Origin: Cephalotus follicularis
Taxonomy: Eukaryota; Streptophyta; Magnoliopsida; Oxalidales; Cephalotaceae
Direction of reading: 5' to 3'
Length of the DNA stretch: 64,000 nucleotides
NCBI GenBank assembly: GCA_001972305.1
Contig: BDDD01000077.1
Location: 434,001 to 498,000, forward strand
A model generated the notes under the pieces. The model had not been told where the DNA came from, searched no databases, and worked only from the letters and a program-made list of their open reading frames with translations. Both the position numbers and the translations under genes were made by a program. Shown here in pieces: positions 583-61,076 of this stretch (its first letter is position 1; each line of letters begins with the position of its first letter).

Positions 583-870
583 CGTCGATGTCTTTCATAG
601 GGATCGATGTCTTTTCTGGGTTTGTAGTGAACGCATCGATGCCTTTTGTTGCGGATCGATGTCCTTTCTGGGATTGCAACCTACCTTCAAAAGCTATGAG
701 AAAGACATCGACGTCTTTCATCAAACGGATCGACGTCTTTGTGCAAATTCGACCTATAGATTTTGGATCAAAACGCATCGACGTCATTCATCATAGGGAT
801 CGATGTCCATTACGCGCATCTCAAGCAAACGACAATTTTTTACAAAACAAGTCGACCTTCAACTAAAGGC
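583..870. repeat. Array of ATCGAT/GTCGAC palindromic motifs in TatA LTR
   Basis: About nine copies of a 10-12 bp motif of the form (G)ACATCGATGTC or GCATCGACGTC recur. They often come in pairs about 20 bp apart, followed by TTTC or TTTG. Variation falls mainly at symmetric A/G and T/C positions of the dyad. The array lies upstream of the TATA-like box, in what should be U3. No coding role is visible. Confidence 0.75.
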
Positions 871-965
871 ATCGACGTCTTCTTCTGCAGCAGAAATAGA
901 AAGTTAGATTTTTTGCCAGATTTTGTAACTAGGATTGATTTATTTCTGTTTTTTATCAGTTTTGT

Positions 966-978
966 AGTATAAAACAAT
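966..978 (+). promoter_or_regulatory. Candidate TATA box of TatA LTR
   Basis: The sequence TATAAAAC sits in a T-rich stretch about 590 bp into the LTR, after the palindrome array and before a pyrimidine-rich leader. This is where a plant LTR promoter would lie. It is a motif match only. Confidence 0.4.
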
Positions 979-1803
979 ACAAGGCCGGCCAAATTCAGGG
1001 AGAGGCTGGTGGAAACCCTATTTTCTTCTTTGTCAATTTTAGTTTATTTTACAATGTTTAGTAGCTAAACTCTTCAAGGTTTTAGGGAAGAACAAAGCCT
1101 AGATTGTTATTGTTTCAATACCATCAATAAAAATCCTTGAATATTTGATTTGTTCTTCAAATATTTCTGCCTTCGCACACACTTTGTCTGTCTGATTAAA
1201 ATCCACAAACATCTTGTCGGTGAAGCTAAAAGTTGGTGAATAAATGGTGCCTAATTCAATCAACGGAGTCTACTCATACGATTTGTCACAACGAACACAC
1301 TTCGTATAGACCTAGCATGTCTACTCATACATCTTGCCGCAGTTGCCGTACTTCGTATAGACCTAGCATGTCTACTCATACGTCTTGTCATCACCGTCTC
1401 ACTCCGTATCGACCTAGCTGCCACTGGTTATCAAGGTATGATCATTCAATTAAATGGAATTGTTCAATACAATCTACGGTGAGTTTCTATACCCTAAAAC
1501 CGCTTCTTAATTATATATTTTCTTCACTTTTATTCGTTGTTTTGATTCGTTTTAAAATTGCATGCTTTATTTCTTGGTATTTCGAATTCAGTATTGTTAA
1601 CTATCGAAGTCTTAATTTCCTGTTTTGATTATTTATTTTGCATAATCAGGAGTAGTTTTCATAATTAAACCTTGATTTCGCATACTTCGCCTAGGTTGGA
1701 TAAATCACAACTAGTTTAACGTTTCCCTACGTTCGACCCGTTACTGCATGATCCGTGCACTTGCGGCTATAAATTTTAAAACATCATTCTTTTTACGCGA
1801 ACA

Positions 1804-2823: not shown

Positions 2824-4382
2824 AGATGTGTCTATCATATTAAAAAATCTGGTTATGCATGATGGTTTAGTGGAGACTAAACATGTTATTGAAAATATTA
2901 GAAATTTTGTGTTATTTATTAAATGGTCTACTACAAGAAAAGAATAATTCAAGAGGATATGTCACATACATAGCTTAAAATATACGAGGTTGATAGTGAA
3001 TTGGAAACAAGATGGAATTCTACGTACGAAATGTGTAAACTTGCTTACACATATAGACAGCCTCTCACTGATTTTTGTTTGTCGTATGCACTGGATTACC
3101 ATTGTTTTGAGAGGGATTGGGACAACTATTCCTTGATGGTTAATTTTCTTCCTAAATTTGATGAGATTCTTTCTAAATTTTCTGGGTAGTATTATGTAAC
3201 CACTAATGGGATTCTTTTTAGATTGCATGATATTGGTATTGGTTTTGAAGAATACATAGATGACATTCTCTTTGGAGAAATGTGCAAACTCATGGAGGCA
3301 AAATTTCTTAAGTACTTTAGTGAGATTCCTTTGCTATTTGTATTGGCAGCTGTGGTGGATCCAAAGATCAACTTGAAGGGTTTTGTTCATACTTTAGAGA
3401 TGATTAAGGCTTCCTTCACTTATGCTTCTATTTTTATTAAGTATGATAAAGATGATATATATTCATATTTGACTAACCTATTTAAAATTTATGTCAATAA
3501 ACATAATACTAGTACAACCCAACAGGTTCATACGCCTTCGCCAGACAAGGGTAAGGGCAAGAGCATAACATCATTCATGATGTCCACATTTCAAAGCCCA
3601 ATGTTTGGGTCTTCAAGTAATCTAGTTTGTCAAGGTCTTCAAGGCGGGCTAGTAACAACGAGCTCCAACATTATCTAGCGGAGTTGCATCCCTCGCAGTA
3701 CATGTGCATTGACGAGTCTAACGACCTCGATGTCGTCGACTGGTAGAAGGCACGTACGCTGCAATATCCCATCTTGTCCATCAAGGCCCAAGACCTACTG
3801 ACAACTCAGGTCTCAACAGTTGCTTCTGAGACTGATTCCTCTGCCGGTGGAAGAGTTCTTGATGACCGACGTAGCAACTTGACACCACAATCACTGGAGT
3901 TATGTGTTTGTCTAAAGGACTGAATTTCCCAAGAAGCTTGGACAGCCGCATTTGGTCCAAGCGATGAAGAGTGACATGTTTTGCAATTATGTCTTACTTA
4001 ACCTATGTAAACTCCTGACCCGCACGAGTATAAATTGTGAATAGCTAAATAATTTGAATTTGTAAACTCCTGGACCACGCAAGTATAAGCTGTGAACACA
4101 AAATCAATAAATAAAATTACATTATTCACTTATCACTACAGTGTTATTTTATTTCCTTCGAATCATAGCAAAAGCCCGTAATTATTAAGTCATCTATAGT
4201 TTGATTTAATTTTTGCTTCATATGATTTGTAAACCAGATTTAACAAAGAATTACACTAGTTCACATTTGAAAAATCGCACTGCACTATTTTTTTTTTTGC
4301 ATTGTTTCAGTCTGTCCCACACTACACAAATGCAGAACCGGGCCGAGCCCAAGCCTAGACCGGCCCAGGCCTTGCCCATCTC
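2824..4382 (+). mobile_element. 3' half of a dead hAT DNA transposon
   Basis: Transposase remnants (2825-3923) are followed by about 450 bp of AT-rich sequence. A terminal segment rich in GGCC-type words then ends in 'gcccatctcta', which looks like the right terminal inverted repeat of plant hAT elements. The next 8 bases (attacata) could be one copy of an 8-bp target duplication, but the left end is not in the window. The LTR ending at 2823 cuts into the transposase gene. Confidence 0.6.
2825..3923 (+). pseudogene. hAT transposase pseudogene (RNase H-like domain and C-terminal dimerisation domain)
   Basis: The translation resembles RICESLEEPER/Ac-type transposases. 2825-2947 gives a helical stretch with ENIRNFVLFIK, closed by a stop at 2945. 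3001-3678 gives TRWNSTYEM, the conserved start of the plant hAT-like RNase H-fold region, through to FVLAAVVDPKINLK. This part has one in-frame stop at 3187. 3663-3923, in another frame, gives the hAT dimerisation domain: ELHPSQYM, YPILSIKAQDLL, VSTVASETDSSAGGRVLD and LTPQSLELCVCLKD. It has a stop at 3744 where functional members have a second tryptophan. The gene therefore has at least two frame changes and several stops, and lacks its N-terminal BED finger. It cannot make an active transposase. The family is clear; the exact subfamily is not. Confidence 0.85.
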
Positions 4383-6507: not shown

Positions 6508-6520
6508 TTTTTATACTCAA
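6508..6520 (-). promoter_or_regulatory. Candidate TATA box of TatB LTR
   Basis: On the minus strand the sequence reads GAGTATAAAAAG. It lies downstream of the palindrome array and upstream of the leader, the same arrangement as in TatA. It is a motif match only. Confidence 0.45.
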
Positions 6521-6599: not shown

Positions 6600-6712
6600 G
6601 ATACGTCGTAAGCGTCGACGCTTGGCGTCCACGCTTTAACGTGTTATGCTGAGATGTGCTTCGCAGAAGACATCGATGTCTCAACAAAAGACATCGATGC
6701 TTTTAGTTCAAA
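6600..6712. repeat. TCGA-centred palindromes, proximal part of the TatB LTR array
   Basis: The perfect 12-bp palindrome GACATCGATGTC and relatives GACATCGATGC and GCGTCGACGC occur here. They continue the array at 12165-12475, from which they were separated by the nested insertion. Confidence 0.7.
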
Positions 6713-7924: not shown

Positions 7925-8175
7925 CTCTAAAGGCCCAGTTTCTGCTGTAACAGTCGACTGTTTTTCCATAATAGTCGGCTGGATCCTTGAGTCAGTCAAC
8001 TGTTCTTCCCCAACAGTCGACTCATCACGAGTAATCAGTAGTCGACTGTCTTCCTTCGACAGTCGACTGTTTTGGGCAAAACGCATGCACAGTCGACTGT
8101 TCTTACTTGACAGTCGGCTGGATGATTGAGTAGTCGACTGTTTTACTTAAACAGTCGGCTGTTCTGGGCTGGACA
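7925..8175. repeat. Distal CAGTCGACTG array in TekJ LTR
   Basis: About nine copies of the 10-bp palindrome CAGTCGACTG or its one-step variants CAGTCGGCTG and CAGTCAACTG recur every 20-30 bp. They lie 1.13-1.38 kb from the LTR start. The spacers differ in sequence. Confidence 0.8.
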
Positions 8176-9009
8176 ATACTAGTAGTTCACTTCTAAATCC
8201 ATTCAACAAGCAATTGAAACCATTCCACACGTATTCATATCACAGAATATCATCTGTAAGCATATCATGGTCTAAAACACAACTCAATTCATGCATTATT
8301 CTCCGTTTTCATTGTAAATTCAAATGTAACCCAATTATGGTATTGCATGAAAACCAATCCAAAACTCCATCCAAAATTCAGTGTGCATGTCAGGTTATTT
8401 ATTAACAGTAACCTCAACATCAATACAGAAATCCACAACCAGCAACTACACCATTCATTTATAACCTCATTACTCTTAACTTAAAATGCATGCATAGAAT
8501 TCTCTCAGTGTGCATGTCAGGTTATTGATTAACAGTAACCTCAACATCAATACAGAAGTCCACCTCTTTGTGTCTCCTTCCCAGTGTCTTTGAGCCTCCC
8601 AGTAGCTCCAACTCCAATTCCAGTAGCTCCAAGAACAGTCCACTAGTTCCAATCCGAGCTCCAAGCTTACCAATGGAGAATTCTCTCAATTTCTCACTAT
8701 TTCCTCTCTCAATTTCTCTGGTTCTTTGGTCTTTTAGTGTCTGGACGAGAGGAGTGAGGAGAGGCATTTTATGTAGAGACTTTTCTCTTCCCCTCTCCCC
8801 TAGCTCCCTCACATGGCACTAAATGCCACCTTCCCTTCTAACACTTGCATGCACACACACATGTCATTCAACCCCTTCCCCTCAGTTTCTGCAGGTTCTA
8901 GCAGTCATGTGCATGGCATACACATTTCATCTATCATCAGATGGCGCCTGGAAGATGCTTTTATCAGTGGCTGCATGTGATCTCGTCACATGCAAATAAA
9001 ACAGAGCAC

Positions 9010-9150
9010 GATCCAGTCGGCTGCCTTTCCCTGGCAGTCAGCTGTTCGCCTGGCAGTCTGTTGCCAAGTGTTACGACAGTTGGCCAGTAGACTGGTTCAT
9101 CCCACCAGTCGACTGCTTCCACAAGCAGTCAGCCAGTCGACTGCCTCCCG
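9010..9150. repeat. Proximal CAGTCGACTG-type array in TekJ 3' LTR
   Basis: Copies of CAGTCGGCTG, CAGTCAGCTG, CAGTCGACTG and decayed forms recur 155-295 bp from the LTR start, upstream of a pyrimidine-rich stretch. The partial 5' LTR carries the matching cluster at 11830-11985. Confidence 0.78.
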
Positions 9151-9344
9151 TATAGTTACCAAGTAATCACACTTCTAAGTATATAATTGACTTAATATCA
9201 AAATCAACATCATCAAATTCGGAAAAACCATCATTTTATTAATTCCACAAATAAAGCACATTTACATTGTGAAATTACAATACATGAAATTTCCGGGCGT
9301 TATATCCACCCCTCCTTCAAAAGAATTTCGTCCCCGAAATTCGA

Positions 9345-11371
9345 AACAACTAGAACAAGTGTGGGTAACGTTCTCGGATATCCTCCTCACGCTCCCAAGT
9401 CGCTTCATCCGGCCGATGAAATTACCACTGAACCTTTACCATCGGAATGGTTTGGTTCCTCAATACTTGCGTCTTCCAATCCAAGATTCTCACGGGTGAC
9501 TCCTCGCAGGAAAGATCATCCCTCACCGTAACCGAGTCATAGTCCAAGACATGTGATGGGTCTCGGATATAACCTCGTAGCATTGATACGTGGAAGACAT
9601 CATTTACACTCGACAATGTAGGAGGCAAGGCTAGCTGATATGCTACCTCCCCAACCCTTTCCAGAATCTCAAAAGGACCAATATAGCGTGGCGCTAGCTT
9701 GCCCTTCTTCCCGAATCTTTGCACTCCTTTCCACAGAGATACCTTCAAAAACACGTGATCTCCAACATTGAAGGTTAAAGGCCTTCTCTTCACACTGTCG
9801 GCATAGCTCTTCTGCCGACTCTGCGCTGCTAGTAACCTTTCTCTGATGAACTTGACTTTCTCCGAAGTCTCCTTCACCAAATCTGACCCAAGTAGTGGTC
9901 TTTCACCAACCTCGTCCCAACAGACGGGTGACCTACACTTCCTCCCATATAGTGCCTCGTATGGAGCCATACCAATACTCGAGTGATAGCTGTTATTATA
10001 AAAAAACTCTATCAGAGGGATATGGTCTTCCCAGGTTCCACCAAAATCGATCACACAAGCCCGAAGCATATCCTCCAGGGTTTGGATGGTACGCTCTGAC
10101 TGTCCGTCTGTCTGAGGGTGGAATGCAGTACTGAGATTCAATCTTGTCCCGAAGGCTGTCTGAAATCTCTTCCAGAAGTTAGAAGTAAAGATCGAATCCC
10201 TATCGCAAACGATGCTCACCGGAACACCGTGCAGTCTCACAATCTCCTTCACATATAATCGAGCCAACTTGCTTGTAGAATCAGTGACATGTGTAGGCAA
10301 GAAGTGTGCTGATTTAGTGAGTCTATCAACAATAACCCACACGGCATTATGACGATACCTAGTCAGTGGAAATCCATAAACAAAGTCCATCGTAATGTGT
10401 TCCCATTTCCACTCCGCCACTGGTAATGATTGCAACAGTCCCGCAGGTCTCTGGTGTTCGGCCTTGACCCTATGGCAAGTCAAACACTTCGCGACATATT
10501 CCGCAATTTCGCGCTTCATGTCGGGCCACCAGTAAGTCTTCCTCATATCTTGGTACATCTTGGTGCTACCAGGATGAATACTATATAGGGATTTATGAGC
10601 CCCGCGGAGTAACTCATCTTTCAGTCTTGGTTCATTCGGAAGACACACACGTCCCCGATATCTCAAAATACCATCAGCATGCACTAAAAAATCGGGTTTC
10701 GAGTCCAGGTTCTCCCGAATCCGTTGCAACTCTGGATCATGTGGCTGTGCACCCTTGATGTGATCAAGTAACACAGGCTGTACTCGCATGTCGGCTAGAA
10801 AGATCCCCGGTGACTGATTGAACGGAGACCATTCTTGGAAGTCTTCTAACTTCTTCCATTGCGACACCATCGTACTGGCAACCATAGCCTTGCTGCTCAA
10901 TGCACCAGCGACTACATTCGCTTTTCCTGGGTGGTACTGGATACTGCAGTCATAATCATTGAAGAACTCCACCCACCTACGTTGTCTCATGTTCAGTGTG
11001 TCCTGACAAAACAGGTACCTCAAACTCTTATGATCGGTAAAGATCTCAAACTGTGCCCCATAAAGATAGTGTCTCCACTTCTGAAGGGCAAAGATAATAG
11101 CTGCAAGTTCAAGGTCATGAGTCGGGTAGTTCTCTTCATACGGCTTCAGCTTCCTAGAAGCATAAGCAATCACCTTTCCTCGCTGCATCAGTACGCAGCC
11201 CAAGCCCTTACCCGATGCATCACTATAGACTGTAAAGCCCTCATTACCCTCAGGTAATGCCAAGATAGGAGCGAAAACCAACCGATCCTTCAGTTCACGG
11301 AAACTAGCTTCGCAATCTTCATCCCAGACAAACAAGGTCTTCTTCTGGGTCAGTCTAGTCAAGGGCTCGGA
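9345..11371 (-). pseudogene. TekJ pol remnant: RT end, RNase H, integrase, chromodomain
   Basis: Minus-strand translation shows, in order, the end of the reverse transcriptase connection ([17 protein letters not shown]), RNase H ([18 protein letters not shown] and [10 protein letters not shown]), the integrase zinc-binding region (CLTCHRVKAEHQRPAG), the integrase core (WVIVDRLTKSAHFLPTHV and SIVCDRDSIFTSNFW) and the GPY/F module ([16 protein letters not shown]). It ends with the start of a chromodomain (IPMVKVQW), as expected for a Tekay/Del chromovirus. It is part of a broken element without gag, protease or most of the RT. These enzymes would copy and integrate the element's cDNA in cytoplasmic particles and the nucleus. 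Its closest relatives here are the elements at 14705-20853 and 24224-36091. Confidence 0.88.
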
Positions 11372-12140
11372 AGTCCACCTATTTGTGTCTCCTTCCCAGT
11401 GTCTTTGAGCCTCCCAGTAGCTCCAACTCCAATTCCAGTAGCTCCAAGAACAGTCCACTAGTTCCAATCCGAGCTCCAAGCTTACCAATGGAGAATTCTC
11501 GCAATTTCTCACTTTTTTTCGCTCTCAATTTCTCTGGTTCTTTGGTCTTTCAGTGTCTGGATGAAAGGAGTGTGGGGAGGCGTTTTATGCAGAGACTTTT
11601 CTCTTCCCCTCCCCCCTAGGTCCCTCACATGCCACTAAATGCCACCCTCCCTTCTAACACTTGCATGCACACACACATGTCATTCAACCCCTTCCCCTCA
11701 GTTTCTGCTGGTTCTAGCAGTCATGTGCATGGCATACACGTTTCATCTATCATCAGATGGCGCCTGTAAGATGCTTTTATCAGTGGCTGCATGTGATCTC
11801 GTCACATGCAAATAAAACAGAGCATGATCCAGTCGGCTGCCTTTCCCTGGCAGTCAACTGTTCGCCTGGTAATCTGTTGCCAAGTGTCACGACAGTTGGC
11901 CAGTCGACTGGTTCATCCCATCAGTCGACTGCTTCCACACGCAGTCAGCCAGTCGGCTGGTCTGTTGTACCAGTCGACTGCCTCCCGTATAGTTACCAAG
12001 TAATCACACTTCTAAGTATATAATTGACTTAATATCAACATCAACATATCAAATTCGGATAAACCATCATTTTATTAATTCCACAAATAAAGCACATTTA
12101 CATTGTGAAATTACAATACATGGAATTTCCGGGCATTACA
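11372..12140 (-). repeat. Partial 5' LTR of TekJ
   Basis: On the minus strand it starts TGTAATGCCCGGAAATTCC at 12140. It matches 8557-9304 of the 3' LTR almost base for base, including the pyrimidine-rich block and the proximal palindrome cluster (11830-11985). Confidence 0.82.
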
Positions 12141-12164
12141 TATAGGCTGATTTTTCTCAAAGAG

Positions 12165-12475
12165 ATCGATCCAATTATATGAAGACATCGATATCCGAAC
12201 AAAAGACATCGATGCTGTTATTATGACATCGACGTGTTTTTCATATCATTGAAGATAGGATCAATGCAGTCTATATGACATCGATCTCGTCTACAAGTCC
12301 ATAACAGACACCGATGCCCACCGTAGACATCGATGTCTTTCACTCATATATGCTCAAGACATCAATACTTACTGAAGACATCAACGTCCTTCACACAATT
12401 ACGTCCTGGATGCTCGCAACGACTAGTTAACTCATGAAAGACATCGATGTTGTGTTAAGCGTCGACACTTTGCTC
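12165..12475. repeat. Array of ACATCGATGT-type palindromes in TatB LTR
   Basis: About ten copies of GACATCGATGTC and relatives (GACATCGACGT, GACATCAACGTC, GCGTCGACAC) recur in irregular pairs 200-510 bp from the LTR start. The arrangement matches 583-870 in the sister LTR, on the opposite strand. Confidence 0.78.
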
Positions 12476-18099: not shown

Positions 18100-18264
18100 T
18101 GTAACGCCCGGTAATTTTCTGAGTGTAATATTTCGATTTATGATGTAATCTTAAACTTGATTTTATGAGTATGTTGAGTTTTTGAACTCAAAAGATGCTT
18201 GCAAACCCTATTTATGGTCTTGGAAAGGGAATGTGGATGTCAAAGCTTGAAACGACGCTGTTTT

Positions 18265-18430
18265 GGGATGAAGACATCGACGTCTTTGGAAAGACGTCGA
18301 CGCCTATGAGGATTGAGGTACACGTGAAGGCATGGGCATACACGTCGACTTTGGGAGAAGGCATCGACACCTCCTTACAAAAATGGAAAAGACATCGATG
18401 TCTATGTAAAAACGTCGACGCCTTTGTAAA
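18265..18430. repeat. Proximal GTCGAC/ATCGAC array in TekA LTR
   Basis: At least six copies of GACATCGACGTC, GACGTCGACGCC, GGCATCGACACC and GACATCGATGTC occur 165-330 bp from the LTR start. They recur in pairs with CTTTGGAAA-like spacers. Confidence 0.78.
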
Positions 18431-19184
18431 GAATGGCTGTCACGTTCTTCGCTGGCAGAGTAACATGCAGTGGGGGATCTTGAGGGCTTTACAGATGCCT
18501 CTACAAGTGCATGGTGACGTGTTGAGCATGTCGGTGTGTTGCCAGGAATGCTTAAACATGTCCCTCACATGGAACATGCAAGGGAATACCACCCTAACAT
18601 GTAACCTGCAAAAGAAGAAGAATAGAAAACAAAAAAGAAATGCAGATTTGGAAAGTGGGAGAGAACACGAGGGGGGCCTGTTAAATGCCAGGAGAAGAAC
18701 GTTGGGAGGAAGCTATCTGCATAAGAATAACCCTCCCCACTTATCTCTCTCGTTTTAAAACACCAGAAGAAAGAGAAGGAATAAAATAGTGTGTGTGTGT
18801 GCCACCATTGTTGAGCAAGGGAGCTTGGAGCTTGCACACCAACTGCTAGGACGAACCAGGGAGCTTCCAAGCCGTACCTGGGGACTCAAGTGACTTCGTG
18901 GAATACTAAAAGAGGTGGACTTTCGGCTTCTAACTTGAGGCCAGAGGTAGGGGAAAGCCATACTGTAATTTTGAGTTTAATATCCATGCATGGTATATGA
19001 TTTTGGGATGTATAAAATGCATGATTCTTGGAATGATATCATTACTGGATTGATGCCATGATATGCTAGATATGTTTTGAGTATCTGCATGTTAGTTCCT
19101 TGCCTTGAAAACCTGTTGTTATGCATGATTATGGGTTGTTAAGGCCACTGTTTGATAAGTCGTGAGGTAGAAGACGACTACTGC

Positions 19185-19500
19185 TGGAAAAGACATCGAC
19201 GCCTTTTAGATAAGCATCGACGTCTTCTTCGTTTTGTCCTATTACTGACTGAAAGGGATCGACATCTTTGGAAAGACATCGACGCCCTAGGTTACCTACC
19301 TGGGTTTTGACGTAGAAGACATCGACGCCTAAGGTTCCCACCTTAACGCGTCGACGCCATCAACAATACGCTGTCGTTTTAGGGTTCCAGACCTTGAACG
19401 TCGACGCGTAGGAAATGGACGTCGACGCCTTCAGTAGAAGAACGCGCTAACACTGAGACTTGGACATCGACGCCTTTAGGAAAGACGTCGACGTCTTTGT
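19185..19500. repeat. Distal GTCGAC/ATCGAC array in TekA LTR
   Basis: About a dozen copies of GACATCGACGCC, GACGTCGACGTC, GCATCGACGTC and relatives recur 1.09-1.40 kb from the LTR start. The motif type is the same as in the proximal cluster. Confidence 0.78.
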
Positions 19501-20430: not shown

Positions 20431-20455
20431 TTAGCCGAGTGAGGACAAAGGCTAA
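20431..20455 (+). promoter_or_regulatory. Conserved LTR stem-loop TTAGCC...GGCTAA
   Basis: The two 6-base arms are exact complements around a 13-base loop and are followed by CCCCCTAC. The same block occurs on the element sense strand at 7115-7139, 35702-35726, 37175-37199, 38977-39001, 46978-47002 and 60663-60687, always about 0.35-0.43 kb before the LTR 3' end. An RNA role (3' end formation, dimerisation or packaging) is inference. Confidence 0.6.
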
Positions 20456-24210: not shown

Positions 24211-24366
24211 CTCAGTGGGTTTCTGTAACGCCCTTGATTTTCCTTAATGTAATGTTGTATTTTCCAATGAGTTTATGCAATTAATTAATGAGAATTATGA
24301 CTTTTCCTTTTTGTAATGTTAAATTTGGGTAAAAGTCAAAGTGTGGAAAGTGCTGATGCAGGGCGG

Positions 24367-42355: not shown

Positions 42356-45286
42356 TGTAACACCCCCGATTCGGAGGGAGTCATCACGGGTCCTAATCTG
42401 AGACTAAACATAACCTATCTTATAACGTGGCTCAATTTTATTCTTTTTATCAAGATATTAAGTCATCTTTTATTCAAATTGCGTGATGGTCTAAAACTTA
42501 ATATTCAAAATCTAAAACATTGTCTAAGACTTTATTCATAATATGAAACTTAAACAAAATCTGGAAGGTTAAACATAAACTAAAGCTGAAACATAATCCA
42601 AAGTCATAAACTGAAAGACATAATATTACTCAAATAGGGGTTCTAACATGACCATAAAATAACTAAGCAAAAACGAGTCCATCTCCTAAGTGTTCTTTAT
42701 CATAGGTGATATCTCCCTCATCACACATTACCCGGATGCTGTCCCAGAATACCTGCCGCATGGAAACAAAAACGCGGCTGAGCAAACCTCAGTACGGATA
42801 TAGAGTCATAAAACATAAAATGATAATTTAAAAGATAGAAAATACCTGAACCTTGAAATATCATACGACACATGTATAAAATAATTATAAACAGTTCTAT
42901 CAATCCAAAACCAATATCCGAATTTCAAAACGTTAACAAATTTCAAAAACGATATCTGAAAGCAAAATCTGATTTTCAAAGCATAATCCAAGTTTCAAAG
43001 CAAATCAAGAATCCCAAAACGATATTCAAAATGATACTCAAAATCTCTTTAACATTGTCCGAGTTAAAAAGGGTTTCAAAACAAAACATATCCGATTCCG
43101 ATATCTCATAAAAGAGATCCAAAACATATAACAGAGACTTATCCGATTCTGAAATCTCATAATAGAGATCCAAAGTACATATACATTAGTGCAAGGGGTT
43201 TGCAAGGCCCACATGCTCCGACGGAAAGATGTGTACGGCACTACACAATCAATCCCCAAAATCCGAATCCATAACATATCCTAGGATCGACCCATACACC
43301 TCTATCACATAGTGGATCCATAAGTCCACCTCATGGGACTTATTCAAAACATAGAGAGACGCCGTAGACTAACCACACCGCTACGGAAGTGTCATGTCCC
43401 TGTGCCAGGCCTACGACATGCCTATGGTACACCCCATAGGTGGGAAATATCTCTGTATATCCAAAGTTAACATACTTCCTAATGTGAAAGTCATGTTCGT
43501 TTAACACACTTCGATAGTAGAAGTCATGTTCCTTATCAAATCCAAAATACGTGTACTTTCGAATGTGAAAGTCATACTTAGTTTATAAAAACAAGTGATA
43601 TTAAACCTTAGTAGTAAAACAGATTTTATAAAATATCCAATGTTGCATAACATTTCATAAATGTTTAAAGTAAAAACATAAAGCCAGGAAATATTTATTT
43701 TCACAAAAATATTTTACTGACTTTATTTCAAAACATATCGAATACGGAGCATAACGGAGTTCATAAAATCGAAGGGACATATTCATAAAGTAACTATCTT
43801 TTTACCATAATAAAAACAGTAGGAGGGTATCAAGGAACGAGACATCCGTACCTTAAGCGATCACAAAAATAACTTTACGAATTGACCAACAATTTCTAAT
43901 TGTCCCTCGTAGCACACAAATCTAAAAGATACAATATCACTCATATAAGGATTCAAAAATCACTTTCAAACATCAAACAACAATTTAACAATGTTTAAAA
44001 CATGCTCCAATTCATTAGACAAACAAATGGATTACAAAACTTAAAACCAGAAAATTCCTGGACAATTCCAGTCGACTGTATCAAGATCCAGTCGACTACT
44101 CATAGGGGGGCAGTCGACTACACAACATAGGCAGCCGACTACTCAATCTGGGTTGAATCCAGTCTATTGTGACAGGGGTCCAGTCGACTGTGAAAGGCCA
44201 AACAGTCGACTGTTTCACAAAGCAGTCGACTGTTCTGGGCGACAGAACAGCAAAAACAAAGCAATTCAATTCTAATTTTCTGTCAAAACCATATTACAAC
44301 ATTACCAGATGATCTTAAACACTTACATAGGTCTTATGTGACTTAACGGTTACATTTAAACATCCAGAATCAACCAGTTCAGGTAATTGGTGAGCTTTCT
44401 TTAAAAGAGAAGCAAGTTTGAATTTTTATTTGCATAACCATGTGTTAAATTTTCTGTCAAACCTTTACTGTTAAATCCAAAACTAGTTTAGTACCATTAC
44501 TAGACTTCCCAGGACTTACTAACAATCTCAAAACATCAGCAAAACATGCATGGCAGGGAGTAAACAAAACCAACATACTAGTAGCCTTCATGAACATGCA
44601 ATTTGATGATATAAAACGAAACTCACTGCTATGCCATATTAACAGAGGAAAACCAACCTGATTTAGTGAAGCAAAGAAGACAATAACAGGATCTAATCCT
44701 TGCAAATTCGGCTACCAGGACAGGGAGACAAAGTAGAGGCACAAACAATGAACATATATCATATTTAACCAAGAAGGAAGGCAATTTAGGTCATGGTAAG
44801 GTAAAAAGGAATCCAAAGTCTGATACAATGTGGAAATAGGGCATAAGTTCGGGATTGAGGGAGAGGAAGAAGGAAAGAAATCTGTTTGGGCAGAAGAAGG
44901 AAGAAAAACGAGAGAGAGAGGGAGAGGGAAAAATAGAAAGTAATATGTTTTAAAATAGGAAAAAGGGTTTATTTCCCAAAATGCTCAAATTTTGCCATAA
45001 TACATTATAAAAACTGATTTAAAATTAATTTACAACATAATAAAATTAATTCCATTAATTTTACTTATTCACGTACATAGTCCAACCAATATTCAATAGC
45101 CCAAAATTAAAATTATCCAACCATATAACAAAACAATAAATTTTTGTTTTTCCAATAATCATATTCTAATAAATATAAAAGCATTAAGTTTAAATTACGT
45201 AGCCCAAAGAACACATTATGCCAACGCAACCAAATAATTCAAATTTAAAATCCGAAAATATGCACGTGAACGAACGGGGTATTACA
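42356..45286 (-). repeat. Solo LTR 3 inside TekD
   Basis: This 2.93-kb LTR reads TGTAATACCCCG...GGGGGTGTTACA on the minus strand and is flanked by the perfect 5-bp duplication ccggt (42351-42355 and 45287-45291). The sense-strand CTGAG/CTCAG stem-loop is at 42778-42792. A single palindrome cluster (44069-44242) lies about 1.05-1.2 kb from its start. There is no internal region. Confidence 0.9.
44069..44242. repeat. CAGTCGACTG array in solo LTR 3
   Basis: About seven copies, mostly the exact palindrome CAGTCGACTG with some CAGTCGACTA and CAGCCGACTA, recur every 20-35 bp. This LTR family otherwise resembles solo LTR 2, which carries GTCGACGC motifs instead. Confidence 0.8.
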
Positions 45287-46591: not shown

Positions 46592-48936
46592 TGTCACACC
46601 CCGTTCCCGTTATCACAGCATTAAACCGGTAAAGGCAATCAATGTAACGTTATCCAGCTTTTACAAAAAAATATAAAATTAAAAACTTCAATTCCATTCA
46701 CATGTGCGGAAGCATTTAATTACAAGCTAGATAAACAAACCGAATCATACGTCCCATACCACATGATTCCAACATTAACATAATTGAGCCATCGTCGATT
46801 GCCCACAAACGGGGCGTGATAAAAAGTCGATCAACACCATTAATACATTAATATAAAATAATACGGGTCTCAATACATTGATAGACATTTATTTAAACAA
46901 TAAAACTCCATCTCCCCATAGATTCGCTGCGCACGGTCGACATCCACATCACTGCATCAATCTGTAATAGCAGGGGGTTAGCCTTTGTCCTCACTCGGCT
47001 AAATCATAAGTGAAATTCAAGGTCAGTGATAATGAATGTCATGAAATGAATGCACTCATGATGCAATATATAATATATCGCCACACGTACATATACATAT
47101 ATATATATATATATACCAATAGGTGCAACCATGCCAAGTGGCCGTCACATCAAATCATCATCATGCCTCGAGGGCTGTCAAATCAAATCAATTCAAATCA
47201 AATCAAATCACTGTCTCAAAGGACAATCAAATCCAATCAATGTCTCAAAGGACAATCAAATCACTGTACGAAGAGCACCGCCATCTCCTGGCACCGACGT
47301 CGTACTCTTACTTCGGCCCCCGACTCCCGGGTCACAAAGCAAGGCAACAAATCAAACTCATGAAGCTCACACTCTGTGTTCAGCAATCATGGTCCCCCGT
47401 GTTACTTGCACTCTGTGTTTAGTAACATTGTATTTGGGCGTCCCTAGCCATCTCCTGGCACCTAGGAGAGCATCCCCGCCACCAGCCATCAGTGACACTT
47501 CGTCACTCAAGCCAGTACGACATCAATCACAATCAACAAATCAATTCAATTCAAATCGTTTCCAAGTATTTGATAAAGTACTGGAAATAATACATTTATA
47601 TTAAAATGTATTGCATCTTTGAAACCATGTTTCAATCCATTGAAAACATAAATTTTTATCAAAATATATATTTTCATATCAAATAAAGATTTATATAAAA
47701 TCATGTACACATTTCTAAAATGAAGAAAAACACTTTAGAATCATCCATATCTAAATCATCAATTCATTTCATATCAAATGAAATGCAAAGATATGCTTAA
47801 AGTATGGGTCAGTCTCTCACCAGTCGGCTGTCTCCTCATGACAGTCGGCTGTCTTCCTTCAACAGCTGGCTGTCCTAGCTCTGGCAGTCGGCTGCTCCCA
47901 TAACAGTCAGTTGTCTCCTTATGACAGTCAGTTGCTCTCCTTATCCAGTCGGCTGCCCTCTCTTGGCAGTCGACTACTCAATCTTCTGTAGGTATGTTCT
48001 ATTAAACGTATGAACAGTCGACTAGTTCTTACATCCAGTCGGCTGTTTCCTATTGAGTAGTCGGCTATTCGCACTGAACAGTCGACTGTTCATGCTCACC
48101 AGTCGGCTGCCCGCCTTGGCAGTCAACTGGATTTATACCAGTAGGCAAAAACAGCCGAAAAATGCATGTCTTTCACACTTCAATCCAACCAAACACGATC
48201 ATTCAACAACAATAACATACATTTATGCTCATAATACAGTCCATAGCATGCATTTCGTCCATTAACTTCCATTATAATGGAACTTAAATAACAATTATGA
48301 AATTTACCCCTACCTTAGAATTCCAAGTTAGGAATTGCAATCCACCTCTTTAAGTTCCAATCCGAGTTTGCATGCCTCCGAAATCGTCCAGCAACTCCAC
48401 CAAGTCTGTTTCGAGATCCAAGTCCAGATTCCAAGCTCAAAATTGGAGAGATACAACTTCTCTCTCTCTTTTTCTCTCCTCTCCCTCTTCACAATTCTCA
48501 ATCTCTTTGAATTTGCTGATGAGAAGAGAAGAGAAAGTGTGTTTTTTATTGCCATTTTTGTGTCTCTCTCTCCATAACCCCACAACTGAGCAATTTTGTC
48601 CTCTCCCCCTTTCTCTCTACCAAAGATAGACTGCCAACACGTTTTAACTGACCTATCCCATGGCAATCGACTGCCTTATCTTGGCAGTCAGCTGTCTCTG
48701 CCGACACCATCCAGCCGGCTGTCTCTCGCAGCAGCAAGCTAGTTCCTTCCTATAGGGTCCAGTCGACTGCCTCCTTATGGCAGTCGGCTGCCCGCCCTGT
48801 ATCAGCACTTTCCACACTTCAACTTTTTCCCAAGCTTAACATTACAAAAAAGGAGAAAGTCATAATTCTCATTAATTAAATGCATAAATGCAATTAAAAT
48901 TACAACATTACATTAATAAAAATCCTGGGCGTTACA
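46592..48936 (-). repeat. 5' LTR of TekD
   Basis: This is 2.35 kb on the minus strand, from TGTAACGCCC at 48936 to GGTGTGACA at 46592. Palindrome clusters are at 48660-48800 and 47820-48130, at the same offsets as in TekM. The stem-loop is at 46978-47002, and an AT microsatellite lies near 47093-47115. Confidence 0.88.
47820..48130. repeat. Distal CAGTCGGCTG array in TekD 5' LTR
   Basis: About a dozen copies of CAGTCGGCTG, CAGTCGACTG, CAGCTGGCTG and CAGTCAGTTG occur every 22-27 bp. The partner array in the 3' LTR is 39780-40095. Several copies differ between the two by single transitions. Confidence 0.8.
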
Positions 48937-51950: not shown

Positions 51951-52922
51951 TGTATGGTTATGATTTCAGGACGAAATCCCTTTTAAGGGGGTCTTCCTAA
52001 TTTGTTTTGGACGGTGACAGTGTTTTTGGAAAGAAAGATTCTTTCCTTCTTCTGGCTATCCAATTTCCTTATGTATCTGACGCGTTTTGGTTTGTTTGGT
52101 AATGTCTTAAAACACCGATTTTGTCATTTAAACACACGGATTTTTGCACTTAACAGACCAATTGTTTTAAGAACTCAAACCATTTTTGCATTTCTTACAA
52201 ACCAACACAGCAACTTGAGCACATTTTTCTGCATCACTTTTGACGTCTTTTGAAGGTAATTTCTAAACGAAAGTTGTAGTTTGTACTATGTAGTTTCTAT
52301 ATCACCCATTGATTTGTATTAAAACCGGCTAGAATTTATCTTTGAGCATAATTTTAGAGGCCTGTTGAAATAGATTTCTGCTATTTGAATTCAATCTGTA
52401 TTTCTTATTCTTACATGTTTTAATTGATACACCGGTGTTTATAGCAACGAATTTATTTATAGGTATATGTATGTCACTGATTTTAGGATTTATGCACTGA
52501 AAAATCAGATTGTAGTTATGTTTGCATAAACTGTTTATATATCTGAAAATTTCAATTCAAAATGTGTTTTGTACTTTACATGAAATCATAGGTTTATTCT
52601 GGCGTTTTTGAAATTGCATAACATGTCACAGAACCTACATGTTGTTATTTATGCATCGTGTTTATCAAAAATCAGATTTGGCCATGGATTTGAAACTGTT
52701 TTATACAGATGGTACTGTGTGTTCGATGCAAACCATCGACGCTTATTTCTTGAGCGTCGCCGCTTTGTACGTTTTTATGCTGTGTTTAGTCGATGCTTTG
52801 CTCAACGCTTTGTCCTTTTATGTAATGAAACCGTCGACGCCTAAGAATAAACTGTCGACACTTTCTCTGGCAGTCTTGATAATTGCTTCTTTTTATGTTA
52901 TGTGATGTTTGGGCTTATATGT

Positions 52923-55635
52923 TGTAACACCCCCAGACGACAGGATTCGTCACAGGTCTTAATACAGAACCTAACATAACATATATGAACATAAACATAA
53001 CTTATCAGCCAAAAACGTGGCGGTCATATCATAACTGAAAACTTAAAAACTTAACAATTTCTCAAAATTTAAACATATTTCAGTTCAAAACTAAAACATA
53101 AGTATCTTGTTGTTCATGACCACGAGACATAAAAAAAACACAGGGATCACACTCCTAGGGATCCAAAGCATAGGGTAGTCATCTCTCGCTCACACATTCC
53201 CCCGCTGCTCCTGATAACCTGCCGCATGGAAAACAAAAACGCGGCTGAGCAAACCTCAGTACAGATAAGGGAAAATAAAACAGTAAACGATAAGTTTAAC
53301 AGAAATCTTAAGCAATTAAAAACAATTAAACATTTGTAAAGTCACATTTGTACTTTCATAAAATCCTTATAACTTTCGAAACATTTACGAAACATTTCAA
53401 AACATCATATCACGATTCATAATTCATATTGAGCCACATATGTATCACATAACATATATTTTGTCAAGGGAGGCGCTAATTCCACATGCCCATTAGAATT
53501 GAAGTGTACGGCACTACATAAGTCAATTCTCACATATCACATATCATATACTAGAATCGATTCATACGCCTCTATCACATAGAGGATCCATAAATCCACC
53601 TCATGGGATTTATTCATAACATTCAGAGATGCCGTAGACTAATCACACCGCTACGGAAGTGTCATGTCCCCGTGGCAAGCCTACGACAGGCCTATGGTAC
53701 GCTCCATAGGTGGGTACAATACTCAGTATTCAATCATTTCGAAAACATTGATTTATCACAATCAATTTAAAAACACATAAATATGCTTTCACTAAACATA
53801 TTTGCAAATCGTTCACAAATGATATCATATCATACATTTCATAGTCAAAACATCAACTCATTTATGTTTCGCTATAAAGAGGTGATCATTTCATAACATA
53901 TTGTAACATATCGTATCATGTAAATAAAGTCGGGAACATTTAAATTCGCAAAATGTCAAAAACCAACTTTATTTCCGAAACATGTCAAACCATAATCAAG
54001 TTCATAAAACGAAGGAACAAACTGATTTTAGTTCGATAAAACCAGATGGCCAAAGAACGATAGAAATCCATACCTTATGCGTTCACAAAAGCACTTACGG
54101 ATAGATGATTTAAATCGAACTTCCCTTTGAAGCACAACAATCTAAAAGGCACCCAAAACCATTCATATAAGGGTCTAAGAAACATTAGAGACATTAAACA
54201 GACTTATTACAGTGTTTAGAAAAGACCAAGATTGATTCGGAGAACAAACGGAGCAAAACAATTGAAAACAGTAATTTTCTGGGCAAAACAGCCGGCTGTT
54301 ACAGAGCACCAGCCGACTGGGGAAGCTTGGCAGTCGACTAATCATAAGGGCCAGCCGACTACACAAGACAGACAACAGGCAGTCGACTGGTTCATAGATC
54401 CAGTCGACTACACAACCTAAGATAGTCGACTGTTTTCATATGGCAGTCGACTACTCATCCAATCCAGCCGACTGTCCACAAGAACAGCTGACTGTTCTGG
54501 ACGATAGAACAGCAGAAACTTGACATTTTCATGCAAAAACTGATTCAAACGAGTACAACATTAAACCAGAGACACAAGGATATAAACATATGACATAATA
54601 TGGCATTTAGATGATGCAGAAACACATAATTGACAGGGAAAAAGATGGACAGTGGCTTAACTTCCAAGGAAGACAATAACTCCCTACACACATGGACATG
54701 TCCAAGTCCAAATTCTCTGTCCATTATCACTTTGAGACATTAAAACCAGATTGTGACAAGTCTAAGGGGTTTAAAACATACTGACAGGCTTAATAACACA
54801 ATGACAGAACATATATAGGCAGGAAATCAAGACTTAAAGGACACTAAGAACACTAACAACAAAACCAAAAGAGAAGTGAAACAAATCATTACAGTGAGAT
54901 ACTAACCTGCAATGATTGTCCAGAACTCAGAAAACACAGCAAGAATACCACAATTTCACTTGTTACCCGACTGTACAAAAGGAAGACAAAGAGAACAAAA
55001 CGAAGAGTACATAACATGCTTAACAAACCAAAGGGATTCAACCCAAAAGACAAAGGAATATTAAGATTACCTCTGTAATGATTTCACAAGGATCAACAAA
55101 CTCCAATAATGCAGAAACTCGGCAGTGGCTTAACAGAAAAGAGGAAGGCACATTTAAATGGGCAATGTCCCTCACCAAAAGGAAAAAGGGAGACAAAATC
55201 CGCTCACATATGGAAGAATAGAGGATTTTCAGACAATTATAAAGGAAAGAAAGATTGTTACCGTGTGAATTGATGAGGGGAGGGAGAGGATTACGGGAGA
55301 AGAGAGGGGAGAATAGGAAAGAAAGAAAGAAAAGAAAGAAAAGAAAAAGAAAAAAGAAATAAAAGGAATTAAAAGAAATAAAATACTTAAAATAAAAGGA
55401 TTTTTAAAATGAAAAGGAATTGTTAAAATATAGTTTGGATTAAAAATAAAATAAAACAGAAGCCCAACCCAACATTGAATTAACATATCCACAAATTCAG
55501 GCTGGTATCAATCAGCCCAAATCACATAGGCCCAAAACAAAGGGCAACCGGACTTTAAAATTAACAAAATTAAAAGCCCGAAAACAAACACAAAAAAGTC
55601 CGTAAAACACATTTTCGAACAGACAGGGTATTACA
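52923..55635 (-). repeat. Solo LTR 4 inside LTR F
   Basis: This 2.71-kb LTR reads TGTAATACCCTG...GGGGGTGTTACA on the minus strand, flanked by the perfect 5-bp duplication tatgt (52918-52922 and 55636-55640). The stem-loop is at 53245-53259. A palindrome cluster lies at 54285-54500 and an AGAAA-rich run at 55316-55360. There is no internal region. Confidence 0.9.
54285..54500. repeat. CAGYCGRCTG array in solo LTR 4
   Basis: Copies include CAGCCGGCTG (near 54290), CAGCCGACTG, CAGTCGACTA and CAGTCGACTG, spaced 20-30 bp, about 1.14-1.35 kb from the LTR start. Confidence 0.78.
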
Positions 55636-57010: not shown

Positions 57011-57199
57011 TGCAAGGAGCTAAGAGAGGCTAGGCAGCAAGGAGCTATTGAAGCTGTGGATATACGCCATGCTGATGAATCAGGGGATTCACACCGTTTG
57101 GATAGGCATAATGAATTGTATATTTTTCCAAATGGATATAAACTTTCACCAGATCTAAGTTTTAACCATTGCATTAACAATTCAATAAGGAACAAATGA
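57011..57199 (+). other. Exon-like open stretch of unknown origin
   Basis: Immediately after LTR F one frame stays open for 62 codons to a stop at 57197. The composition is protein-like: it begins CKELREARQQGAIEAVDIRH and later has RLDRHNELYIFPNGYKLSPD. I do not recognise the family. It could be a fragment of a host gene or of a non-LTR element into which LTR F inserted, or chance. No start codon or upstream part was found. Confidence 0.25.
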
Positions 57200-57650
57200 T
57201 AAAAGATGTTGAGAGATAATTGGACTTTCTCTCTAAATGGACATCTCCTGGAAAACCATGTGAGAATTGTATATCCGTTTGGAGCATATGGATTGTGCGA
57301 AAAAGGTCCAGTCCATGATATCTTTGATACATCTTCCTATCTCCTTCTGAGTTATGCATTGCACAGGACAATACATATCCAAATCCCTATTCCTTGAAAT
57401 TTTCTCCCTCTGATATCATGAGGATATCATATGATCAAGGAGATCATACATGGAGGTAACCTAGCCTAAACCATCTGTTGGTTAAAGGCTGCCCAGCTTG
57501 TATTATAAGGGTGGAAATCTTCTAAGCTGGAGGCATGAATGGATCATTACCGGTTTATGAGATATCTTAAGAAAGGCTTAAGATATCATTTCACCATCCT
57601 GGCGAATAGAAGTTTTGTGTCGCATACTGCATATTCCCAAGGAGGGAATA
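57200..57650. other. Unassigned interval with a perfect 11-bp hairpin
   Basis: I see no gene. At 57561-57587 GATATCTTAAG and CTTAAGATATC are exact complements around AAAGG. A cluster of GATATCAT and ATGATC words lies near 57412-57450. This may be the distal part of the LTR that follows, but I could not match it. Confidence 0.35.
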
Positions 57651-58794
57651 CCTAATTACAGGAAACAGTTGGAGTAAGGTGCAACTAAGGAATTTACATT
57701 ACTCCTTATCCTTGACGCTGCTGTGATGTGCCACCGCTACCTGTTCCTGTACCTGGCCTATTCAGAGAATGGGTCAGCAACCCTGGTGGTTGTGTAGGTT
57801 ACCACATGTACGGCACATACAAGAGGAACAACAATAAAAAGCAGAGGCGAAAATAATGCATGCATACCATGATTACGGACCACAATCATCACATAATAGC
57901 CATCGCTATTTATCCTCGGACTACTCTACTCAAGCCATACATATCATTCACATTACAGAGGAGTTTGTCCGGTCATCCTATGGTCTGGTCAGTATATTAG
58001 GTTCACCTTTAGGCTCACCTGCCTACGGATTTCTCCTCCAGGTTCACCTGCCGAACGAAATTCTCCCTTTGCTCACCTACTTTGGCGGTTCACCCTTTGG
58101 ATCACCAGCTCTGGTGGAATTCACCCTTAGGTTCACCATTGAGCGGATTCGCCCAAGGATCACCTGCTAGCGGTATTCACCCCCTTGGGTTCACCTGCTT
58201 GGCGGAATTCTCCCCACTGGGGCTCACCTGCTCTGGACAATGTTTATACTTCCTTTACTATTCACATTTCATTCCATAAGCATGTTCTGGGCATACTGGT
58301 ATGCAGCACATTCCCATGCAGAAGGCCCACGTCAGTATGCATGCATTAGGCATGTAGGGTGATAACGAGCGCATGCCAGGGACGCATGCAAGTTCGGCAC
58401 TATTGATTGCTCAGGAGGTGTGCAAGGCAGAGGATGGGACTTCCCTTGCATGCTCCTCGGATACATTCCAGCAATGGAGGATGCACTGCTCGGCGCAGGC
58501 TGAGGCACATGGCATGCTCCTCGGCACCTCGGCACCTGCCAGGTGAGAATTCAAGTATGGCAGAGGAGAGCTATGGATGCTCCTCGGGCACATGGCATAG
58601 GAAGGCCATGGATGGCTCCTTGGGCACATGGCAGAGGAAGTGCTCAGCGCCGTCACATGCTCGGGTGATAGCAGAGGAGAGCTTGGTGCCACTGTATGGT
58701 ATGCACGGAAAGCATAGATTCTCGACACATGGCTCCTCTGGCGTTGGCACCTCAAGCACACGACTCCTCTGGCATTTAATAGTGGCACCTCGGC

Positions 58795-61076
58795 TGTAAC
58801 GCCTGGGATTTTCATTGAATGTAATATTGTATTTCCCGATGTAAGCTTTTCCCATCTTGTGATGTTAAAGCTTGCATGAAAAGATAAAGAAATTGTGAGA
58901 AGTGATGAAACATGGCGAGCAGCTGTCTGTCGGGAGGGATAGTCGACTGGATCCCCTTAGGTGGAACCAGCTGACTGCTGGGAGAAAGACCCGGCTGGAA
59001 CTGTCGATAGAGACAGTCAACCATTGAGATAAGACAATTGACAACCATGTGGTCAGACAACATAACGTGCACGCCAGACCTGTCATGGCAGAGAGAGTGA
59101 TTTGGGGGATTATGTCGGCAGTGAGAGAAGGAGAAAAAAGGGGAAACACGTTTTTCCCCCATAAAAACACACTTTCTTTCCCCCTCTCCAATCAACATTT
59201 CAAGAGATAAAAGAAACAGAGAGTTGTGAGGGAGAAGGAGAGGAAAAAAGAGAGAGAGGTGAAGCCAAATGCTCCATACTTGAGCTGGGGACTTGGAGGC
59301 TCGAACCAATCAGAGAACCGAGCTTGGTGTAGTTGTTACACGGACCTGGGAGCTCTGAACGCCTCGGATCCGGGACTTAAAGAGGTGGATTGCAATTCCT
59401 AACTTGGAATTCGAGGTAGGGGGATTTTATAATTGTGGTTTGTGTTCAGTTACAATGGATGTTCATAGATGAAATGCATGCAATAGACTGAGATATAAGC
59501 ATGAATGTGTGTTACTATTGATGAATGCTCTATTTTGAATGGATTGGGTTGAGACTTGCATGTATGTTCTACTATTTTGGGCACTGCTTGTAGGAGCAGC
59601 TGACTGTCCCAGGAGGATAGCCGATTGTTCAAGGGTACCACCCTACTGTTCAGCAAGAACAACCGACTACTCGATGGGAAACAGCCGGCTACTGGAGGTC
59701 AGCAGCCAATTGTAAAGGGCACAATCAACTATTTGGGGGCAACAGTCGACTGTCCATGTGTCACTCTACCTGGGTTAATTGAGGTGGAATTACTGGGGTG
59801 AGTGGTAAAGAGGAAGACGCGTATTGTTCACGGACTAGCCAACTGCTAAGGAAGACAGTCGACTGATTGAGAGAAAACAGCCGACTGCCAAGAGGGCAGC
59901 CAACTATTGATTGAGGGCAGCCGACTGCCAATAGAGGATAGCCGACTATTGATAGGTGAACAGCTAACTGTCGAGGGGAGACAGCCGACTATTGGGGACT
60001 GATTTGCATTATGAGCATATGTGTACATTGTGCAATGTAATGAACTGAACTGTGAATTGATTTATTACTGATTGTGAAATGTTTTATCATTTTTGGAAGT
60101 GTATACATGATTATTTATAAATCATTACTTTACACGGAAATGTACGTTTTAAGCAAAATATATATTTTCGGAAGATTGTGAAAATGGATTCCAAAAGATC
60201 GTGAACTGTTCAAAGAGTTGTACATCGTGAAAATGTGATGTTTTTAAGTATTTTTAACTTATAAACTACATGGAAAATAGATTGGGTGTCGAATTGATTG
60301 TTTATTGTGATTGTTGTCGTACAAGTTGCGTGGCGGAGGATGCCAGCGATGGCTAGTGGCAGGGTTGGCCTAGGGGCCATGAGTTGGCTGGGTAACTCAC
60401 TGTACCGTGACTTGCTTCGTGCTATCCGGAGTCGGGGCTGATGTCAGGAGTATGACGTTGGGGCCAGGAGTTGGCGACGCTCTTCGTACACATTGTGAAT
60501 TGATTGGTCCTTTGGACATGATTGTGAACCGTGAGATTGTAGCCTTTTGGCATATGTATATACACCTATGTATATACATGCATCGAGATATAGTATGTAT
60601 TGCATCATGATGCATTCATTACATTGCATTGTTTATCACTGGCCCTAAATTACATTTATAATTTAGCCGAGTGAGGACAAAGGCTAACCCCCTACTTTTT
60701 CATATTGATGCAGTGTTATGGATATCGCCCGAGCACGGCCGTATCGAAGGGGAGATGGAGTTTTATTTGCTTGAATAAATGTTAAATTATGTATTGAGAC
60801 ATGTTTTGTTTTGGATTACTGTATTGATATACTAGTGATGCTGATCGACTTTTGATCACGCTCCGTTTGAGGGCTTTTGACAATGGCTTAATGATATTAA
60901 ATGTTGGAATCATGTGGTATGGGATGCATGATTTGGTTTACTTATTCAGCTTATTATTAAATGCTTCAAAAAAATGTTTTGGAATCAATGTTTTAAATTT
61001 ATCGTTTTTTTTTGTATAACCTGGATTCATGATGATTGCCATGACTTAAATGTCATTAATGAAGCAGGGTGTGACA
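58795..61076 (+). repeat. Solo LTR 5
   Basis: This 2.28-kb LTR begins TGTAACGCCTGG and ends AGGGTGTGACA, flanked by the perfect 5-bp duplication tcggc (58790-58794 and 61077-61081). Palindrome clusters are at 58918-59050 and 59595-60000 and the stem-loop at 60663-60687. It is the same family as the partial LTR at 36790-38011 and close to the TekM LTR. No internal region remains. Confidence 0.9.
59595..60000. repeat. Distal CAGYCGRCTG array in solo LTR 5
   Basis: About sixteen decayed and intact copies occur (CAGCCGACTG, CAGTCGACTG, CAGCCGGCTA, CAACCGACTA, CAGCTAACTG), 0.80-1.21 kb from the LTR start. It is more decayed than in TekM, consistent with an older insertion. Confidence 0.75.

Follow-up and report, generated by a model that had tools for sequence, protein, structure and literature searches.

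The genome of Cephalotus follicularis harbors regularly spaced arrays of short palindromes (dyads) in the long terminal repeats (LTRs) of its retrotransposons. The arrays were analyzed in a stretch of 64,000 nucleotides, here called the window (contig C77, BDDD01000077.1, bases 434001-498000; assembly of 1.577 Gb, a 1.58-Gb genome), which contains many LTR retrotransposons, the clearest being of Gypsy type, and in samples and loci elsewhere in the genome. The arrays are real and lie far above chance. We propose, with a probability of about 0.7, that the dyads are putative sites for dimeric, sequence-specific DNA-binding proteins and that the arrays would serve as enhancer-like control regions. 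Regularly spaced dyads, the purity of arrays in one of two motif classes, the retention of the motif between families while spacers drift, and its recurrence in LTR and internal regions that are otherwise unlike are together best explained by a cooperative dimeric binder. A dimeric protein had already been suggested in a preliminary description of this DNA and is the best-supported reading, but the argument offered there, a joint change of both flanks, fails within the classes.

The preliminary description listed several types of motif. Palindromes do exist, but the types reduce to two classes, since CAG halves rarely mix with others while GCG and ACR halves mix. Class I is CAGYCGRCTG, counted 382,615 times genome-wide. 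Class B is AAAG-RCRTCGAYGY-CTTT, the RCRTCGAYGY part of which was counted 387,758 times over the halves GCG, ACA and ACG (GCA halves left out); the variants ACA/TGT, ACG/CGT and GCG/CGC all belong here and mix across the dyad. Together the classes amount to one site per 2,048 bp of genome. Among 136 distinct class B sites and 145 distinct class I sites, the outer arms of class B are conserved (AAAG before, CTTT after) and class I is almost without arms. Clusters with at least two sites are pure in class in 52 of 54 cases; of the other two, one extends over two elements. Genome-wide counts refer to exact words, each compared with the same word reversed, and the eight motif forms counted reached 23-605 times this control: CAGTCGACTG (197,377 against 939), CAGCCGACTG (177,392 against 1,330, both strands), CAGCCGGCTG (7,846 against 133), GCGTCGACGC (73,186 against 121), ACATCGATGT (30,741 against 652), ACGTCGACGT (21,696 against 950), ACATCGACGT (110,999 against 2,128) and the mixed form GCGTCGAYGT (151,136 against 1,316). 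The form with one CpG lost, CAGTTGACTG, was found 21,361 times (control 4,173). Because so few of these stand beside the 197,377 intact copies, the majority of copies are probably of recent origin or carry little methylation at the central CpG. A TTAA-centred relative of GCGTCGACGC, GCGTTAACGC, was seen at position 2122 of locus L021, exactly 21 bp from a class B site.

Whether both halves of a dyad belong together was assessed with a half-site test of Hardy-Weinberg type, the totals of which are dominated by high-copy families and are therefore descriptions, not probabilities. Hybrids between the classes (CAG/RCR) numbered 16,647 against 270,776 expected from independent halves, a ratio of 0.06, or about 16-fold rarer. 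The hybrid CAGTCGACGC occurs 12,715 times (control 359), and CAGTCGAYGT shows no excess (3,932, control 5,458). Within the classes, asymmetric forms stood at 1.23 times expectation for T/C beside the CG of class I, 1.36 times for ACA/ACG and 0.82 times for GCG/ACR. In the smaller sequenced sample the two sides of class I were slightly less alike than permuted sides (0.55 against 0.60); in class B the first position was slightly more alike (0.61 against 0.53, 37 of 1000) and the third neutral. Thus, dyad symmetry above chance is seen in the form counts and in the rarity of hybrids, to which family purity contributes, and the flanks change together between classes but not within them.

Within the window, exact words comprise 29 copies of CAGTCGACTG, four of ACATCGATGT, one of ACGTCGACGT and two of GCGTCGACGC. 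TCGA-centred palindromes of 10 bp number 40, against 3.2 expected under a first-order Markov model. For 20 arbitrary 10-kb pieces of the genome, 11 of which hold at least one class site, the corresponding figures are 45 and 8.8. Ten LTRs (seven from the window, three from other loci) carry 3-13 class sites each; 200 dinucleotide shuffles of every LTR never gave more than one site, except for one LTR that reached two. The clusters claimed in the preliminary description thus withstand the comparison with shuffled LTRs by which it had proposed to refute them. Its solo LTRs of the GTCGACGC type proved weak, with a single exact class B site in 26600-27900 (27690-27699, isolated in an LTR-like stretch, strand not assigned) and none in 52000-52950. 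Other palindrome centres were compared in the window and the 20 samples. ATAT and TATA were also high, owing to simple repeats; CCGG reached 3.1-fold in the window, where its set includes the class I variant CAGCCGGCTG; the remaining GC-containing centres did not exceed 1.9-fold. In 41 kb selected for the motif, CCGG, CGCG, TGCA and AGCT centres stood at 2.0-4.3-fold, on small numbers. Once the four half-sites of both classes were removed, most of the general palindrome excess vanished and a weak residue stayed, 17 palindromes against a permutation mean of 10.2 (standard deviation 3.0, maximum 22 of 500). Since TCGA alone among the GC-containing centres is strongly enriched in the window and the samples alike and the residue is weak, a copying process that favours palindromes, the other explanation in the preliminary description, is unsupported. 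A candidate third class, TCATCGATGA, was rejected: no array lies near any of its four copies, one of which, by eye, spells the catalytic motif of reverse transcriptase (RT). Among viral contigs, no stretch with a spaced class I pair was found; four had a spaced class B pair, three of them at 63-67% GC and none with a class I site, and these were judged to be chance.

The Gypsy-type elements TekA, TekD and TekE have LTRs that start with TGTAACGCCC and end with GTGTGACA. We take them to be Tekay elements, a label that follows the preliminary description; the Tat labels given there (TatA, TatB) were not confirmed. The TekA LTR (18100-20853, forward strand) carries 13 class B sites at LTR offsets 174-312 and 1093-1385. 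TekD, likewise on the forward strand, has nine exact class I sites in its 5' LTR (24224-26487; offsets 214-264 and 897-1112) and nine in its 3' LTR (33848-36091; offsets 165-264 and 811-1110), the pair being 93.8% identical. A 102-bp tandem duplication was noticed in the second half of both TekD LTRs (25659-25856 and 35281-35475). TekE lies on the reverse strand, with ten class I sites in the 5' LTR (46592-48936; sites at 47821-48109 and 48712-48790) and ten in the 3' LTR (38592-40545; sites at 39784-40093), which lacks about 357 bp of its start. Element A, a short-LTR, Tekay-like element on the reverse strand (8555-12140; pol open reading frame (ORF) at 9422-11524), has an LTR pair 93% identical, with three class I sites at 9014-9143 in the 3' LTR (8555-9302) and five at 11830-11980 in the 5' LTR (11370-12140), where the first site lies 161 bp from the LTR start. 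This distance is 143-177 bp in seven of eight LTR types, locus L034 being the exception at 742; in the TekD 5' LTR the first exact site is at offset 215.

The motif was described as recurring every 20-30 bp. The spacing is indeed regular, but nearest neighbours are mostly 20-21 bp apart, and 28 bp is a class I minority. When all pairs up to 220 bp were tried against periods of 8.5-13 bp, class I gave 10.3 bp (R 0.55, 369 pairs, phase near zero) and class B 10.2 bp (R 0.49, 312 pairs, phase 0.1 bp). On contig C1, 339 class B sites gave a period of 10.20 with phase 0.13 bp and R 0.38, and 166 class I sites one of 10.35 with phase -0.70 and R 0.69; the highest R among 300 random placements was 0.22 and 0.42, respectively. 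These two sets overlap in part, and more than one insertion of the same family enters the counts. A deduplicated test was confined to the window and the 20 arbitrary samples, with arrays of repeated spacing removed (11 class I and 14 class B arrays), and gave class I a period of 10.25 with R 0.47, reached by 1 of 300 random placements. Class I spacings in the window, the samples and contig C1 form the series 21, 28, 49, 70, 91-92 and 112 bp; on C1 the helical repeat scores best. A link between spacing and the DNA helix is likely, but not proven.

The preliminary description attributed the motif to many unrelated families. In the window this holds only in part: TekA, TekD and TekE share 84-90% amino-acid identity in a piece of the RT region (TekA and TekD 84%; TekA 68% in the preceding piece); TekD and TekE LTRs align at 73%, and their arrays are homologous. 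Elsewhere in the genome, Copia-type loci carry the motif as well: L031 and L035, assigned by gag PF14223 (L035 also by integrase-region domains), have LTR arrays of class I and class B, respectively, and L029, tied to L031 through LTR similarity, has one of class I. The name SIRE would apply to such elements. When exact and degenerate motifs were masked, four of 78 pairs of array regions aligned, all within one lineage (L029/L031 among them), and in the same test the LTR and internal arrays of one element had only the motif in common. In four pairings of the two families TekD and TekE, identity was 91.8% in the motif (450/490), 81.6% in neighbouring spacer and 72.6% in the rest. The two LTRs of single insertions, compared in seven elements, showed no preference for the motif (motif 95.0%, spacer 96.4%, rest 95.7%), as expected after insertion. 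Judging by these identities, lineages that continue to multiply retain the motif. The class itself can differ at one place: TekA has class B where TekD and TekE have class I (offsets 146-264 and about 810-1112), yet the TekA and TekD LTR ends align. A class switch in place was noted on comparing the TekA LTR with the TekD 3' LTR, which have similar array positions and the other motif class.

Arrays were also found inside elements, upstream of accessory ORFs with PF20167 (Transposase_32). Such ORFs lie at 4090-5409 in L031, 3698-4882 in L029, 6435-7517 in L035 and 8645-9844 in L026, where the upstream side falls outside the sampled stretch, and also in L041-L043. Such ORFs are apparently very abundant; genome-wide, 13,073 first-look candidates were obtained, and all 150 that were scored matched. 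In L031, L029 and L035 the frame lies 3' of gag or pol and is interrupted by a stop in the latter two. Upstream of it stand four class I sites in L031, where the array overlaps the stop-to-stop frame before the first ATG, five class I and one class B site in L029, and three class B sites in L035. The internal class is that of the LTR in all three elements in which both are visible. By eye, the L031 protein is basic at its start and coiled-coil-like at its end, and it contains an acidic stretch. Five class I sites precede the ORF in L042 and one class B site that in L043, whereas L041 has no class site in 1,501 bp upstream. The ORFs of L042 and L043 agree in 97% of their DNA, but a comparison of the regions upstream of them found no similarity, a possible promoter swap, while the upstream regions of L041 and L043 align at 75%. 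Hence the PF20167 product is not obviously a class-specific reader, a role for which it had been considered. In L029, L035 and TekE, a TATA box stands no more than about 140 bp beyond the array.

Several observations weigh against the proposed binding sites. For class B on contig C1, a 23.1-bp period ties with 10.2; in the deduplicated set, a 7.0-bp grid describes class I better than the helical period does (R 0.60 against 0.47), because 21, 28, 49 and 70 are all multiples of 7, and class B is marginal (R 0.32, reached by 14 of 300 placements). The excess of asymmetric forms within classes means that strict symmetry is not what is kept, and whole families being pure in class makes up part of the rarity of hybrids. 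The comparison of TekD with TekE comprises four pairings of these families, and its motif columns were chosen for the motif in at least one row. When masking was limited to exact sites and clusters were joined by single linkage, 40 of the 63 clusters ended in one homology group containing both classes and both Copia loci, perhaps because degenerate copies had stayed unmasked. The stricter masked test misses similarity of about 65%, for example between element A and TekE at the LTR start. Finally, no TATA box could be found downstream of the array in L031, L034 and element A, or in the L042 interval from the array to the ORF frame.

A search of one open-access collection of papers (LTR palindromes, U3 repeats, VANC, plant mobile domain, PF20167, GTCGAC/CBF) listed no account of these arrays, and there the exact words CAGTCGACTG, AGTCGACT and CATCGATG matched an oomycete transcription-factor study. 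Partial parallels exist. The bZIP protein at the LTR repeats of human T-cell leukemia virus type 1 (HTLV-1) binds as a dimer. The 21-bp repeats of this LTR are bound by CREB with Tax (PMC509288). The likeness lies in short imperfect LTR repeats, in units of 21 bp, bound in HTLV-1 by a bZIP protein and a virus-coded partner; the difference is that HTLV-1 has three repeats in one virus, whereas here up to 13 exact sites per LTR, in two classes and several lineages, are known from sequence alone. The VANC proteins of VANDAL elements target YAGTATTAY, a non-palindromic motif arrayed in one orientation (PMC5735166). Both systems have dense short motifs in non-coding element DNA, with related elements differing in motif and a motif shared with an unrelated element, but VANDALs are DNA transposons, while our arrays are palindromes in retrotransposons, recognized so far only as sequence. 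Tandem repetition is a feature of the BII boxes of Tnt1. These are LTR-promoter boxes that bind DNA-binding factors (PMC3316501); the dyads likewise would sit in an LTR promoter but are regularly spaced, in two classes and across lineages. The Grande accessory gene reportedly has its own promoter and a nuclear product. In an active sunflower Athila element, PF20167 lies in a 3' extra ORF with predicted nuclear location (PMC11728184). The extra ORF at the 3' side is alike, but here it belongs to Copia-type elements and its upstream region repeats the LTR motif.

A known plant site also resembles part of the dyads. CBF/DREB proteins recognize (G/a)(T/c)CGAC. GYCGAC lies within class I and RTCGAC within many class B sites. 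These would all carry a core like that of the dehydration-responsive element/C-repeat (DRE/CRT; RCCGAC/GTCGAC), which ACATCGATGT lacks. The forms without CGAC, CAGCCGGCTG and ACATCGATGT, are rarer than expected, but this is not specific, since ACGTCGACGT, with two CGAC, is likewise rarer. Moreover, the DRE is asymmetric and without CAG/CTG or AAAG arms.

On the favored reading, dimeric proteins would bind the dyads in arrays, and the arrays would act as enhancers that activate transcription, probably in the U3 of the LTR and in the region upstream of the internal accessory gene; this would be their simplest role. The spacing of 20-21 bp, about two helical turns, would place neighbouring dimers on one face of the DNA, where they may act together. 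Two specificities are predicted, CAGYCGRCTG and AAAGRCRTCGAYGYCTTT, one per LTR, and families would have changed class, or acquired arrays, on more than one occasion. As the motifs occur in different lineages, the binder is more likely a host transcription factor than an element product comparable to VANC or Tax. A bolder version, which we put forward as speculation and hold to be improbable, is a genome-wide 'address' system: unrelated lineages would have converged on two palindromic codes (about 770,000 sites) read by dimers on regularly spaced arrays, the code being matched between LTR and accessory promoter and switchable in place. Its reader would be an anti-silencing or activating protein, encoded or captured by elements and parasitized by unrelated ones, a retrotransposon counterpart of VANC or Tax.

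Among the alternatives, a trans-acting protein encoded by the elements themselves, with VANC-like anti-silencing or Tax-like activation exploited by other families, seems unlikely, although the arrays upstream of PF20167 ORFs in L031, L029 and L035, of the same class as the own LTR, and the five class I sites in L042 favor it. VANC proteins also bind short tandem-repeat motifs, and VANC6 motifs occur in an unrelated element as well (PMC5735166). However, the near-identical ORFs of L042 and L043 follow unlike upstream sites, and L041, whose upstream region can be aligned with that of L043, is without sites. PF20167 DNA binding is putative, and neither the TekD stretch from pol to the 3' LTR nor the TekE stretch from the 5' LTR to gag shows an apparent extra ORF, though no specific search was made there. 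Less probable still is common descent, in which a single ancestral LTR array was spread by inheritance and recombination and is shared without function. The homologous arrays of TekD and TekE, those of L029 and L031 and the single-linkage group of 40 clusters speak for it, but it fits poorly with the 4 of 78 alignments left after degenerate motifs were masked, with TekA and TekD sharing LTR ends and pol but not array class, with LTR and internal arrays of one element alike in motif only, and with a motif that outlasts its spacer between families.

That the arrays arose neutrally as tandem repeats, through slippage or template switching in units of about 21 bp, is very unlikely. Tandem Repeats Finder does report units of 20-22 bp in several arrays, and repeats could leave the 7-bp grid of class I; yet spacers beside class I sites hold little information (0.02-0.25 bit), spacers drift between families where the motif is kept, and the same two motifs recur across lineages. 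That the palindromes act as RNA or DNA hairpins, in dimer initiation or as cruciforms, is hardly credible. The dyads are 10-16 bp long and the class B arms show a slight excess of complementary bases (positions +1, +3 and +4: 18, 33 and 10 of 1000 permutations), but class I shows no compensating change outside the motif, and mixed R/Y forms, in which self-complementarity is lost, exceed expectation in two of the three tests; a pairing function was accordingly rejected. Insertion-target palindromes, described as a slight preference at target sites (PMC6911290), were also set aside, as the dyads here sit inside LTRs and not at target sites.

Further arrays lie in the window, with no strand assigned. 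Those of class B are at 582-878 (five sites, by the expression RCRTCGAYGY), 6612-6700 (three sites: GCGTCGACGC, ACATCGATGT and ACATCGATGC) and 12206-12450 (four sites). Those of class I are at 7951-8161 (five sites) and, with four sites each, at 38163-38242 (spacings 21, 28 and 21), 44069-44232, 54289-54474 and 59743-59927, the last in a stretch resembling Tekay LTRs. An ORF at 3190-3675 has a weak match to a hAT-like RNase-H domain (E 3.2e-06).

Little is known of the elements that control high-copy plant retrotransposons, and here a likely one can be read from the DNA. Its grammar is simple, with two kinds of dyad of which each LTR uses one, a spacing of about 20-21 bp and a density near one site per 2 kb of the genome. 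Should a host factor bind the arrays, its genomic targets would be mostly retrotransposons, whose bursts it would be a candidate to regulate. Should the binder be an element protein, a trans-acting system would be common to unrelated retrotransposons. In either case, a short bait would be enough to seek the binder.

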